DNA of 64,000 bases from a virus. Shown piece after piece: positions 1-52,438 of the stretch. Numbering within the stretch: position 1 is the stretch's first letter; each line of letters begins with the position of its first letter. The notes below the pieces were generated by a model, which searched no databases, had not been told where the DNA came from, and saw only the letters and a list, made by a program, of their open reading frames with translations. The stretch covers positions 1 to 64,000 of IMG/VR virus record IMGVR_UViG_3300033429_000001. One strand, 5' to 3'. The translations under genes were made by a program, and so were the position numbers.

Positions 1-35
1 ACGCTGTCAATAATATAATCTTGCTTATCTAACAT
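1..35 (-). CDS. Small phage protein, N-terminal fragment (runs off left edge)
   Basis: A leftward ATG at 33-35 is preceded by an AAGGAG ribosome site and a strong promoter at 87-115. The first eleven codons are identical to those of the 57-residue protein at 16585-16758, so this is the start of a paralogue whose remainder lies outside the window. Function unknown. The identity is part of a 99-bp exact repeat, so the window edge may itself be an assembly break. Confidence 0.55.
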   Translation of the reverse strand, partial: MLDKQDYIIDS

Positions 36-99
36 TTTATTCTCCTTTTTGCTATTTCAGTGAGTTTATCTCTCTGAACTGTCTATATAATACCACATT
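1..99. repeat. 99-bp exact direct repeat, copy 1
   Basis: Bases 1-99 are identical to 16724-16822 and differ from base 100 on. The repeat covers the first codons of a small gene, its ribosome site and the -10 region of its promoter. Confidence 0.95.
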
Positions 100-115
100 A
101 TAGCTATAATGTCAA
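87..115 (-). promoter_or_regulatory. Leftward sigma70 promoter
   Basis: Read leftward: -35 TTGACA (115-110), 17-bp spacer, -10 TATTAT (92-87). It drives the small gene starting at 35. The spacer and part of the -35 are covered by an 18-bp palindrome (95-112), so a repressor bound there should block RNA polymerase. Confidence 0.85.
95..112. promoter_or_regulatory. 18-bp perfect palindrome, probable operator
   Basis: ACATTATAGCTATAATGT reads the same on both strands and lies between the -10 and -35 elements of the leftward promoter. This is a typical position for a repressor site. The paralogous promoter at 16810-16838 shares the -10 but lacks the palindrome, so the two gene copies are probably regulated differently. 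Confidence 0.65.
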
Positions 116-197: not shown

Positions 198-296
198 GCT
201 TCTCCCTGTCTGCAATCTTCGCGCTAGGATTGCTTTTAATTATCGCGCTGACTGGCCCAGGAGGTCACCAGTCGAGACAGGGAGGAGAGCGGGAAA
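198..296 (+). ncRNA. Structured RNA candidate A (three-way junction)
   Basis: P1 pairs 199-211 with 275-287 (13 bp, one G-U). P2 pairs 212-217 with 228-233. P3 pairs 250-255 with 268-273. The J2/3 strand 234-249 contains the conserved TCGCG. Copy B at 16458-16550 keeps the fold while changing five base pairs on both sides. A -10-like TAATTT at 186-191 stands at the same distance from P1 as the clear -10 of copy B; a TTGACA at 166-171 has only 14-bp spacing. No ORF spans it. It lies between a leftward gene start (35) and the end of a leftward operon (313). Strand is inferred from the promoters; function is unknown. Confidence 0.6.
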
Positions 297-312: not shown

Positions 313-993
313 CTACTTCTTACTGGACTTCCTTAGCCATCTGTCCCTGGCCATTCTGCAATAGTCTGACCTGGACCAGTGAGTCACGTCACCATACAAT
401 CGTCCGCTTGTGCCCTGGCCAGGCTCACCAGACACCAGGCGAGCGTAGGACAGGATATAGAGACAGCAGTAGTACTCATCATCAAGGAAGCGAGGATTTA
501 CACGTCTTGTAAAATGAGCCTTCGACAGTACCCAGTTGATTTTTATTCTCTGGTAGCCGCCACCCGTCCAGCGCATGGAGAACTTGGTGTCATTGACAGA
601 GTTGGATTGTCTACGCCAGGCGATGCCGACGAATCTCATAAATGTGGATTCTGGTATGGCGATAGGTAGCCCCCGCCCAAAGAATTGAAATTCCTCTGGC
701 TCTGGCTCTCTCCGATCATGCCATTTAATCAGCCGGCCCCCATCATGATGTCCAGGGGCTATGCTGTTGAACGTAGAGACGGCCCGATTCCAACGGGGAG
801 TCCGTTGACCAGGCCGTCGCCAGGGCCAGCGACGGGATAGGACGGTCACAGCAGCAATACCACCGAATCCGTATAGCATCGGTGGCCACCCGTCGCCGTT
901 AGCAAGGGCCGAGAAACAGGCGATGGCGACCGTTGACAGGCCGCCATCAATCAGGAAATTTTGGGTTTCTTGGCGTAGGTTTATTTTGGTCAT
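313..993 (-). CDS. Hypothetical membrane protein, last gene of leftward operon
   Basis: 226 residues with no family recognised. Residues about 18-55 contain two hydrophobic stretches separated by a short polar turn, consistent with a small membrane anchor. The remainder is basic and rich in Arg, Trp and Tyr. It is the promoter-distal gene of the leftward operon and is followed by the RNA candidate at 198-296. The start at 993 has only a weak ribosome site. Confidence 0.55.
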   Translation of the reverse strand: MTKINLRQETQNFLIDGGLSTVAIACFSALANGDGWPPMLYGFGGIAAVTVLSRRWPWRRPGQRTPRWNRAVSTFNSIAPGHHDGGRLIKWHDRREPEPEEFQFFGRGLPIAIPESTFMRFVGIAWRRQSNSVNDTKFSMRWTGGGYQRIKINWVLSKAHFTRRVNPRFLDDEYYCCLYILSYARLVSGEPGQGTSGRLYGDVTHWSRSDYCRMARDRWLRKSSKK

Positions 994-4702: not shown

Positions 4703-4730
4703 TTGACACTATGCAAAAGCGATGTATAAT
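4703..4730 (+). promoter_or_regulatory. Rightward promoter of the repressor gene
   Basis: TTGACA (4703-4708), 16-bp spacer, TATAAT (4725-4730). Initiation is expected near 4737, only about three bases before the ATG at 4740, so the transcript should be leaderless or nearly so, as for lambda cI from PRM. The intervening ACTTGA direct repeats may be operator half sites. Confidence 0.9.
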
Positions 4731-10051: not shown

Positions 10052-10144
10052 AAACCGCTTTTTTGGGGTTTCTATTTGTCAACCTGTTACCTGGACAGGT
10101 CGCCAACTAGAGACAAGTAGAAACCCCACAGGGGCGGTTTTTTG
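10052..10144 (+). terminator. Long nested hairpin terminator or attenuator
   Basis: AAACCGC (10052-10058) pairs with GCGGTTT (10134-10140); inside it 10065-10080 pairs with 10112-10127 over 16 bp with one G-U; CCTGT/ACAGG closes the centre; T residues follow. Upstream GGCGAC (10030-10035) can instead pair with GTCGCC (10099-10104), which would disturb the central hairpin. The architecture resembles the element at 23459-23538. The remainder of 9992-10261 has no gene; the next gene starts at 10262. Confidence 0.6.
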
Positions 10145-15817: not shown

Positions 15818-16021
15818 TTATTTGGTTCTTGGCCCCGGCTTGGGCCTGCCTGGTAAAGTCTTCAACTGGCCCACCTCAATGTGATGCGTGCCACCAAAAT
15901 AGGTTGACTTTAGCCACCCCTTGTCAATCCATTGCTGGACGGTACGTCGCGTGACGATGAATTTTTTGGCCACCTCTGCTACAGTCATGTAATGGCCTTC
16001 TGTAAAAAATGTAGGCATCAT
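15818..16021 (-). CDS. Excisionase-like MerR-type HTH protein
   Basis: 67 residues. MTVAEVAKKFIVTRRTVQQWIDKGWLK (residues 12-38) is the winged HTH pattern of excisionases and of the HTH_17 family, followed by a strand and a Pro/Lys-rich tail. It could act in excision or as a small transcription factor. No integrase is present in the window. Confidence 0.75.
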   Translation of the reverse strand: MMPTFFTEGHYMTVAEVAKKFIVTRRTVQQWIDKGWLKSTYFGGTHHIEVGQLKTLPGRPKPGPRTK

Positions 16022-16045: not shown

Positions 16046-16279
16046 TCAGTGAGTGCGGAGAAACTTGCAGCCATCTTTGACCAGGCCGTAAGCGATTCCG
16101 GTAAAAAACCGGTCTCCCTTAAAGGCCGGGTAAGCCTGGCCCCCGGTCAGGGTAATGCCCTTTTGGGCTAGTTGTCGGACGATTCGGCCTTCCCGGTTTG
16201 CCGGGTGACAAGTTAGGCTGAATGCCTGATCATTGCTTGTTATTAAGGCGTGGTTGAAATAAAGACACTCTTTTGGCAT
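16046..16279 (-). CDS. Hypothetical small protein
   Basis: 77 residues from ATG 16279 (CAGGG just upstream; an in-frame ATG at 16309 lies deeper in the neighbour). CHPANREGRIVRQLAQKGITLTG and the following GDRFFTGIAYGLVKDG read like a folded domain. It overlaps the 3' end of the gene at 16230-16430 by 50 bases. Function unknown. Confidence 0.45.
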   Translation of the reverse strand: MPKECLYFNHALITSNDQAFSLTCHPANREGRIVRQLAQKGITLTGGQAYPAFKGDRFFTGIAYGLVKDGCKFLRTH

Positions 16280-16430
16280 CCCTGTAATCAATCCAGCCAC
16301 GTTGACCATTTTCCCAATCTACAAAGAAACCGTTTGATCCGATTTCTAAAACCATACCAAGGTCGTCGGGATTATTATCCCACATCACCGCTGTCATCTT
16401 CAGTAATCGCTTCGCTTCGTTTGTTGACAT
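16230..16430 (-). CDS. Small SH3-like hypothetical protein
   Basis: 66 residues with AGGAGAATAAA before the ATG. The pattern DDLGMVLEIGSNGFFVDWENGQRGWIDYRDAKRV suggests a small beta-barrel. The start codon overlaps the rightward promoter of RNA candidate B (16424-16451), so the two transcripts would interfere. Confidence 0.6.
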   Translation of the reverse strand: MSTNEAKRLLKMTAVMWDNNPDDLGMVLEIGSNGFFVDWENGQRGWIDYRDAKRVSLFQPRLNNKQ

Positions 16431-16451
16431 TTTATTCTCCTTACTTAAAAT
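16424..16451 (+). promoter_or_regulatory. Rightward promoter of RNA candidate B
   Basis: TTGACA (16424-16429), 16-bp spacer, TAAAAT (16446-16451). Predicted initiation near 16458 coincides with the first base of stem P1 of the RNA candidate (16459). Confidence 0.7.
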
Positions 16452-16457
16452 TTACGC

Positions 16458-16550
16458 CCTTCTCCTCGCCTGCAAGTTTCCGCCGACTTGCTTTGATTGT
16501 CGCGTGACTGGCCGAAAGTAACCAATCGAGGCGAGGAGGAGAGCGGGAAG
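16458..16550 (+). ncRNA. Structured RNA candidate B (three-way junction)
   Basis: P1 pairs 16459-16471 with 16529-16541 (13 bp, same G-U position as copy A). P2 pairs 16472-16477 with 16486-16491. P3 pairs 16506-16511 with 16522-16527 (one mismatch). J2/3 (16492-16505) and the 3' tail GGAGAGCGGGAA match copy A at 198-296. Three P1 pairs and two P2 pairs differ from copy A with both sides changed. A hairpin CCCCAC/GTGGGG at 16561-16575 follows. It lies antisense between two leftward genes. Function unknown. Confidence 0.65.
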
Positions 16551-16584
16551 CTCTCGTTACCCCCACAATGTGGGGAATTGATTG

Positions 16585-16758
16585 TTAGTTGACTTCATCA
16601 TAGATGTTTTTGGCCAGATCATCGTTGTTGTCGCTGGTGAACATTAAGTTGAGCGCATCTTTGACTTGCTGTAATGTTTTTCCGGCAAATTCACTAACTA
16701 CCTGTTGCCAATTCTCGGCTCCTACGCTGTCAATAATATAATCTTGCTTATCTAACAT
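16585..16758 (-). CDS. Small acidic hypothetical protein
   Basis: 57 residues (MLDKQDYIIDSVGAENWQQV...), helical and acidic, with AAGGAGAATA upstream. A second copy begins at the left edge (1-35). No family recognised. Transcribed from 16810-16838. Confidence 0.6.
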   Translation of the reverse strand: MLDKQDYIIDSVGAENWQQVVSEFAGKTLQQVKDALNLMFTSDNNDDLAKNIYDEVN

Positions 16759-16822
16759 TTTATTCTCCTTTTTGCTATTTCAGTGAGTTTATCTCTCTGA
16801 ACTGTCTATATAATACCACATT
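16724..16822. repeat. 99-bp exact direct repeat, copy 2
   Basis: Identical to 1-99; sequence diverges immediately on the right side (16823 against 100). Confidence 0.95.
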
Positions 16823-16838
16823 TGGTACTAATTGTCCA
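16810..16838 (-). promoter_or_regulatory. Leftward promoter
   Basis: Read leftward: TGGACA (16838-16833), 17-bp spacer, TATTAT (16815-16810). A conserved regulatory element lies directly upstream (16845-16894). Confidence 0.8.
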
Positions 16839-16844
16839 CCCAAA

Positions 16845-16894
16845 GTTTCGCTGAGTGAAACAAAAACAGACGAATTTCGATAACTTTAAGGTTA
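16845..16894 (-). promoter_or_regulatory. Conserved upstream element E1
   Basis: GTTTC-N7-GAAAC inverted repeat (16845-16861), an A-rich linker, and the box TAACTTTAAGGTTA (16881-16894). The box starts 43 bases beyond the -35 of the leftward promoter, the same distance as in E2 and E3. Confidence 0.75.
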
Positions 16895-21658: not shown

Positions 21659-21664
21659 GTGGAA

Positions 21665-21714
21665 GTTTCGCTGAATGAAACAAAAACAAACAAAATTTGA
21701 TAATTTTAAGGTTA
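21665..21714 (-). promoter_or_regulatory. Conserved upstream element E2
   Basis: GTTTC-N7-GAAAC, an A-rich linker and the box TAATTTTAAGGTTA (21701-21714), 43 bases from the -35. It overlaps the stop codon of the ParB gene. Confidence 0.75.
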
Positions 21715-28597: not shown

Positions 28598-28652
28598 AGT
28601 TGGTTTCTCCCTTGATAGTCTCTGCGTCTGGCCAAACCTCACGTCTGTACAT
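28590..28652 (-). CDS. Possible 20-residue leader peptide
   Basis: ATG 28652 with AGGAG upstream; the peptide ends eight bases into the next gene. It may couple translation. Support is only the ribosome site and position. Confidence 0.3.
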   Translation of the reverse strand: MYRREVWPDAETIKGETNYE

Positions 28653-28673
28653 GGTTAACTCCTCAATTTAATT

Positions 28674-28835
28674 TTAATCCTTAATCCTTATCCCCCGCCG
28701 CTTTGCTTCCTCTACTACCAAGCGGTGGAGCAACGCAACGATGGACTCGTCAAGACGCGCTGACAGTATCTTGGCAAAGCGGCGGGTGGAAGCCCAGATT
28801 TTAATGGTCTTGAATTGGTTTGTATCTTGTGCCAT
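28674..28835 (-). CDS. RHH/antitoxin-like small protein, first gene of leftward cluster
   Basis: 53 residues (FKTIKIWASTRRFAKILSARLDESIVALLHRLVVEE...). A strand followed by two helices with the DESIVALLHRLVVEE pattern is typical of ribbon-helix-helix regulators and antitoxins. It is the first gene behind the promoter at 28927-28955. No toxin is recognised next to it. Confidence 0.6.
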   Translation of the reverse strand: MAQDTNQFKTIKIWASTRRFAKILSARLDESIVALLHRLVVEEAKRRGIRIKD

Positions 28836-28926
28836 CTGTATGAAATCCCAGTATCATCGTTATATTTCTGAAACTCATCTTCGGTTTTTCTCTATACTAA
28901 ATCCCTAAGAAAATTTAGATGTTGTA

Positions 28927-28955
28927 ATTTTACTACATCTCCCCCAAATCAGCAA
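28927..28955 (-). promoter_or_regulatory. Leftward promoter
   Basis: Read leftward: TTGCTG (28955-28950), 17-bp spacer, TAAAAT (28932-28927). Divergent from 28976-29004. Confidence 0.65.
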
Positions 28956-28975
28956 ATATCCCCCAGTTTTTCCTT

Positions 28976-29004
28976 TTGACTTGCCGGGGTAAACGTGATA
29001 AAAT
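28976..29004 (+). promoter_or_regulatory. Rightward promoter
   Basis: TTGACT (28976-28981), 17-bp spacer, TAAAAT (28999-29004). Expected start near 29011, at the ATG 29012, so the transcript would again be leaderless. Confidence 0.8.
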
Positions 29005-29011
29005 ATAGTGA

Positions 29012-29560: not shown

Positions 29561-29575
29561 AACGGAGGTCTTTAT

Positions 29576-29649
29576 AACCAAATAACCCGGCCCCCAGGTC
29601 AATCGACCCAACAGCCAGTCAGTGCTTAACAGCACGGCTGGCTTTTTTT
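29576..29649 (+). terminator. Duplicated terminator element, copy A
   Basis: A small hairpin GGTC/GACC is followed by an 11-bp two-part stem (29614-29625 with 29632-29642, loop TTAACA) and T7. It matches 52363-52438 closely, with two stem pairs altered on both sides. It ends 15 bases before the portal ATG. Confidence 0.8.
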
Positions 29650-52356: not shown

Positions 52357-52362
52357 AAATAA

Positions 52363-52438
52363 TCAAATAACCCGGCCCCCAGGTCAAACAGACCCAACAG
52401 CCAACCAGTGCTTAACCGCACGGTTGGCTTTTTTTTAT
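52363..52438 (+). ncRNA. Duplicated terminator element, copy B (short RNA)
   Basis: Matches 29576-29649. GCCAACC (52400-52406) pairs with GGTTGGC (52422-52428) and GTGC with GCAC inside; T8 follows. With the promoter just upstream this would give a discrete RNA of about 75 nt. Relative to copy A, one stem pair is changed on both sides and one G-U became a C-G. Confidence 0.6.

Follow-up and report, generated by a model that had tools for sequence, protein, structure and literature searches.

Duplicated three-way-junction elements after stop codons in an uncultivated phage genome, a probable RNA signal on phage messages

Results

Genomic surroundings

The stretch of DNA analysed here (the window) comprises bases 1-64000 of the 72,741-base IMG/VR virus record IMGVR_UViG_3300033429_000001, and codes for proteins of a tailed phage, namely a terminase, a portal protein, a head protease, a major head protein and a DnaB-like helicase. 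Two related segments with the same predicted fold, copies A and B, are found in it, and a third, copy C, lies beyond the window near the end of the record, in locus L004. The copies and the features around them are as follows.

199..287, strand undecided, minus favoured: copy A; P1 199-211/275-287, P2 212-217/228-233, J2/3 234-249, P3 250-255/268-273, single G at 274
288..295: invariant flank outside P1, AGCGGGAA, common to A, B and C
16459..16541: copy B; P1 16459-16471/16529-16541, P2 16472-16477/16486-16491, J2/3 16492-16505, P3 16506-16511/16522-16527, single G at 16528
72519-72629 of the record (outside the window): copy C
313..993, minus: 226-aa gene, whose stop codon stands just before A in the minus sense; no PHROG or Pfam match
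87..115, minus: promoter-like TTGACA-17-TATTAT with TG (11/12), downstream of A and in front of a 57-aa gene
16585..16758, minus: 57-aa acidic ORF (MLDKQDY...), ending upstream of B
16810..16838, minus: promoter-like TGGACA-17-TATTAT with TG (10/12), in front of the 57-aa ORF near B
16230..16430, minus: 66-aa gene directly downstream of B, with its own ribosome-binding site AAGGAG
16424..16451, plus: promoter-like TTGACA-16-TAAAAT (11/12), whose end is 7 bases short of P1 of B and whose first hexamer shares bases with the start codon of the 66-aa gene
4687-4659 leftward and 4703-4730 rightward: divergent promoter-like sites, both 12/12, beside a Cro/C1-type HTH gene

In the minus-strand sense all three copies stand shortly past a stop codon, A after the 226-aa gene and B and C after the 57-aa ORF, and a strong minus-strand promoter-like site then follows A (11/12) and C (12/12, L004 8449-8421), which places these copies where one likely transcription unit meets the next. 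Genes read leftward extend from 4571 to 313 and are succeeded by A, the 11/12 promoter-like site, a second copy of the 57-aa ORF and C; past C come the 12/12 promoter-like site, more genes in the leftward direction and, at L004 4631-4604, a canonical terminator. The second copy of the 57-aa ORF, between A and C, is split over window positions 1-46 and the record end. The record end equals window positions 16550-16661 (112/112) and the window start resembles positions 16724-16841 (108/118), with 62 bases unseen; from this likeness of both to stretches near B we infer that the end of the record joins up with the start of the window. The genes neighbouring the element have no known function, with the exception of a weak HTH match at 15818-16021; the 57-aa ORF has no match in GenBank phages, and no relatives of two neighbour proteins were found in IMG/VR.

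Several other repeats and inverted repeats were seen in this genome. By eye, an inverted repeat (GTTTC...TGAAAC) is common to 16843-16894, 21663-21714 and the vicinity of 22850, beside promoter-like sites, and a distinct one, CTCTACAATTTGTAGAG, occurs near 147-163 and at copy C; these are perhaps two operator types. An element of 76 bases is duplicated at 29574-29649 and 52359-52435 (91% identical) and includes a canonical terminator, with stem changes that look paired by eye. Further long direct repeats of 89-99% identity (5031-5187/13889-14045, 7300-7467/11145-11312 and 21592-21716/22784-22907) indicate that this phage often duplicates short segments. At 28694-28786 a perfect 13-bp stem surrounds 67 bases in which three small hairpins occur (plus-strand z -4.14), within a stretch (28643-29011) without ORFs longer than 60 aa; it and copy A both contain GTCAGCGCG on the minus strand, perhaps by chance. 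At 10052-10140, between genes, two arms of 29 bases each, with 83% complementarity and a 31-base gap, are accompanied by a T-run at the plus-strand end.

Anatomy of the three copies

Copy A occupies about 90 bases between genes, and A and B have the same architecture: a 13-bp P1, a 6-bp P2 that follows with no base between, a conserved junction strand J2/3, and a 6-bp P3. The two are 74% alike over 123 columns by BLAST, and a covariance model of A (and of C, which has the same sequence over model positions 1-98) scores B at 64.5 bits (E 1e-15) across the full 98 model positions; the same model finds no copies besides B and C in the rest of the 72,741-base record. The limits of the repeated unit are those of the structure, as A and B are similar over the junction and the flank and dissimilar outside.

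Together with the promoter, A and C are 99% identical over 214 columns. Immediately past the invariant flank, A departs from both B and C, and C there continues as the B side does (112/112 identical); C is thus a mosaic, A-like before the flank, which indicates past use of the element as a patch for recombination. Since C lies within a stretch that repeats other stretches, an assembly error may be present there.

The differences between A and B are distributed unevenly. They amount to 3/13 per arm in P1, 2/6 per arm in P2 and 1/12 in P3, and to 5/10 in the P2 loop (L2), 5/12 in the P3 loop (L3) and 4/16 in J2/3, of which 12/16 columns are kept; the seven flank columns outside P1 show no differences. 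There is a hint, from two distinct sequences, that P1 and P2, which change freely provided that pairing is kept, are a scaffold, and that J2/3, P3 and the flank are the part recognised.

Paired changes and chance controls

Between A and B, 19 of the 25 pairs are invariant and five (three in P1, two in P2) are changed on both sides, all of them Watson-Crick; the remaining pair, in P3 (column 56/75), is C-G in copy A but C.A in copy B, and this C.A becomes G.U on the minus strand. The indels (L2 and L3, 2 nt each; J2/3, 1+1 nt) exclude a shared reading frame and hence conserved coding. An earlier note on this DNA, made from the letters and their open reading frames, had described both segments as three-way junctions, neither of them coding, with five compensatory pairs (three in P1 and two in P2) and one plus-strand mismatch in P3 of B; its coordinates and anatomy agree with the sequence of both loci, the pair count bears out the five pairs and the mismatch, and the indels leave the segments without a common frame, as it had held.

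When 11 substitutions were placed at random on paired columns, with the observed share of transitions, at least five two-sided Watson-Crick pairs arose in 20 of 3,000,000 trials; by a weaker count, in which G-U was accepted and 24 or more of the 25 pairs had to survive, the figure was 15,472 of 2,000,000. Column shuffling of the alignment gave 16/500, a figure limited by the two distinct rows. A structural descriptor for a closed junction of the size of this element picked out A and B alone in the window, and C in L004, against a background of 0.05 matches per shuffled 64 kb (20 shuffles) and 2 matches in 60 first-order Markov sequences of 64 kb. Two matches appeared in about 295 kb of related phage DNA, one of them inside a 525-aa ORF; folds of this kind are therefore seen outside this phage too, but the pair A/B belongs to it alone. 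The second of these matches is intercistronic (record G019, L177 9918-10003), an inverted repeat past a stop codon with a three-way-junction fold (z -4.16 and -3.11), and has no sequence likeness to A or B.

Two DNA alignments (A1 and A2) are out of register in P2, and a third (A5) was fitted to the covariance model and consequently leans towards structure. A minus-strand RNAalifold result in which P2 is swapped for a short pairing between J2/3 and the 3' arm of P2 came from an alignment out of register in P2 and was not used.

Strand

We lean towards the minus strand as somewhat the more probable of the two. On that strand the minimum-energy fold of A and that of B are the same three-way junction, P3 has pair probabilities of 0.97-1.0 in both copies (0.97-0.99 in B) as against 0.01-0.02 for B on the plus strand, the sole uncompensated change in P3 becomes a G.U pair, and the orientation agrees with that of all flanking genes. 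Other measures point to the plus strand: P2 of A has pair probabilities of 0.77-0.78 there and 0.29-0.31 on the minus strand, one P1 pair is kept there as U.G but reads C.A on the minus strand, P1 of A extends on the plus strand to 22 bp with 86% complementarity, and an 11/12 promoter-like site adjoins B. Fold z-scores are -5.96 (plus) and -3.92 (minus) for A, and -3.96 (plus) and -5.29 (minus) for B. The promoter scan gave no plus-strand promoter-like site at copy A of the 11/12 quality seen before copy B.

Searches for homologues and known families

Rfam 15 gave no matches to the whole window at gathering scores; relaxed to E 10, it returned miRNA precursor families alone, far under their cut-offs (the best, MIR6426, at 20.6 bits against 96). 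One pattern scan of IMG/VR kept the anatomy, among the matches listed (122 loci), in A and C only, the other long arms among them being out of register by eye; a further scan returned 12 stretches with the P1 arm in 0/12, another returned 0 matches, and a fourth returned one match inside a 73-aa ORF whose fold does not match. The fold was present in 0 of 13 stretches from a pattern scan of GTDB contigs. GenBank phages gave nothing for A or B by blastn, and PLSDB plasmids gave nothing for A and a 21-base chance match for B. Phages related by terminase and capsid showed no DNA match in 19 records, and a covariance search of 28 loci of related phages gave no match. Among 400 genomes from the phylum of a Chloroflexi MAG, picked without knowledge of the host, there were three matches of 19.7-21.9 bits, none of them counted as a homologue (two lie within reading frames, and the third, L191, was judged from its alignment). 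The searched collections possibly omit records very near this genome. All covariation accordingly rests on two distinct sequences from one genome, and a literature search by title found no paper on this element.

Some candidate identities were set aside. The hammerhead, twister-sister, HDV-like and integron attC structures were dropped on their consensus features only. A conserved pseudoknot between J2/3 and the P2 loop was dropped too; four pairs are possible in A and three in B, by eye. So was a plus-strand peptide from A (22 codons after GGAGGAG), which is absent at B and C.

Riboswitches consist of a ligand-binding domain upstream of a gene of the matching pathway, plus an expression platform; here no family matched, the neighbouring genes have no known function, and only B is close to a ribosome-binding site.

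The remark of the earlier note that the fold suits no recognised riboswitch or ribozyme is in keeping with the Rfam result at gathering scores, and the covariance search of related phages and Rfam that it proposed yielded no further homologue and hence no added covariation. What survives of its description of a duplicated three-way-junction RNA is the duplicated, structure-constrained junction; the identity as RNA and the strand do not follow from these data.

Discussion

A message-end element

The repeated stretch is probably an RNA signal acting on phage messages. Our preferred account, held tentatively and at less than even chances, is a cis-acting intercistronic element of minus-strand mRNA that follows stop codons and marks or processes message ends. 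The element would be carried in leftward operon messages at gene-gene junctions; once RNA polymerase had passed the stop codon, the transcript would fold into the three-way junction, in which P1 and P2 would form the scaffold and the conserved J2/3 with P3 would be recognised. The most likely effect would be on where the message ends: a nuclease specific for double strands, such as RNase III, might cut the long P1 with the hairpin stacked on it, or this P1 might block exonucleases, and the message of the upstream gene would be separated and stabilised ahead of the next promoter or ribosome-binding site. P1 and P2, abutting as they do, can be set beside the requirement of an RNase III site for about two stacked helix turns. 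No U-tract follows P1 on either strand, so the element is not an ordinary terminator; and as canonical U-tract terminators are present elsewhere (for instance at L004 4631-4604 and 29574-29649), an element without one presumably does something else.

Alternative explanations

It is unlikely, though second in our ordering of these functional accounts, that the element is the start of a small, free-standing plus-strand RNA (at B and C some 130 nt long), beginning at the foot of P1 and acting in trans or antisense to the 3' end of the 57-aa ORF message. In its favour are the TTGACA-16-TAAAAT site (11/12) ending 7 bases ahead of P1 of B, a hairpin of six pairs, CCCCACAATGTGGGG, with AATTGATTGT after it, which B and C both have downstream, and the greater length of P1 of A on the plus strand (z -5.96). 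However, A and C lack an equal promoter (they have TTGACA, a 14-base spacer and TAATTT), the downstream hairpin is missing at A, P3 of B is unfolded on that strand (0.01-0.02), and the first promoter hexamer at B overlaps a start codon.

Antitermination of the put or nut kind, in which nascent minus-strand RNA would bind the elongating polymerase directly or via a phage protein and cause read-through of downstream terminators, appears distinctly improbable. In its favour, repeated, related copies with kept structure resemble putL and putR of HK022 (about 70 nt each, alike in sequence) as described in PMC9378689, and the promoter-like site of B stands about 260 bases upstream of it, close to the spacing of about 270 nt from the start given there for putR. 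Yet put, by the same source, is two stem-loops in series and not a closed three-way junction, and some 4.4 kb separate A from the 12/12 leftward site at 4687-4659, just after which no copy is found.

Much the same low probability attaches to a DNA element, in which the inverted repeats would be read as a protein site, a cruciform, or a replication or recombination site and the symmetry of the DNA would keep the pairing. The tied strand evidence for an RNA and the mosaic copy C, in which the element was once a recombination patch, suit this; but the arms are 63 and 57 bases apart around an asymmetric junction, the conserved J2/3 is unpaired, as expected for RNA, and no integrase or transposase was identified among the 10 proteins scanned.

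Least probable is an origin without selection on structure, by template switching, in which one arm of a quasi-palindrome is copied over its partner. Each of the five two-sided changes is an exact complement, as templated correction gives, and two sequences cannot separate the two causes, but P1 and P2 require an event each, P1 (columns 2/92 and 5/89) and P3 (column 56/75) still have uncorrected mismatches or wobbles, and the 12/16 columns kept in the unpaired J2/3 are not explained by templating.

Returning to the message-end account, we can extend it to a proposal that we regard as doubtful, namely a new class of phage RNA in which a three-way junction with an invariant junction strand would mark the ends of operon messages, the whole being a processing or nuclease-blocking module that is duplicated together with operator-controlled promoters and insulates neighbouring transcription units. 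Phage RNA signals such as put, nut and the RNase III sites have taught how messages end, get cut and get read through, and a junction RNA repeated within one phage, preserved through exact paired changes and outside every Rfam family, would add one more kind of signal to them. Its limit is rarity, as it is known from one uncultivated genome; the position of the copies at likely transcription-unit boundaries makes it testable by simple reporters.

Comparison with known systems

An intrinsic terminator consists of a G+C-rich stem with a U-tract directly after it. The element is alike in having a G+C-rich stem past a stop codon, and unlike in that P1 lacks the U-tract and the stem, at its base, closes around a junction; the terminator scan at A and B gave no site covering P1 on either strand, and only the P2 hairpin (plus strand) inside the element. 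The phage nut site is a boxA followed by a boxB hairpin that is bound by N, and CGCTCTCC on the minus strand may resemble boxA. The flaviviral xrRNAs are three-way junctions in 3' untranslated regions that need a ring-forming pseudoknot; a conserved pseudoknot was not seen by eye in A and B.

The RNase III sites of T7 are repeated, intercistronic folded sites in early messages, and R1.1 among them is a single hairpin. Our element differs in having three helices and a conserved junction strand of 14-16 nt; by analogy, R1.1 may be considered its nearest processing analogue. In PMC4858673, R1.1 RNA is a 60-nt substrate of RNase III in which one bond is cut to give 47 and 13 nt.

The put RNAs of HK022, as described in PMC9378689, are two stem-loops lying just after the early promoters or about 270 nt downstream, and suppress termination without protein factors through the zinc-binding domain of the RNA polymerase beta' subunit. 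With putL and putR (about 70 nt, same source) our element shares the presence of two related, structured and putatively cis-acting copies in operons of one phage, a likeness by description only; it differs from them in that its predicted fold is not two stem-loops in series but a closed three-way junction, placed after stop codons.
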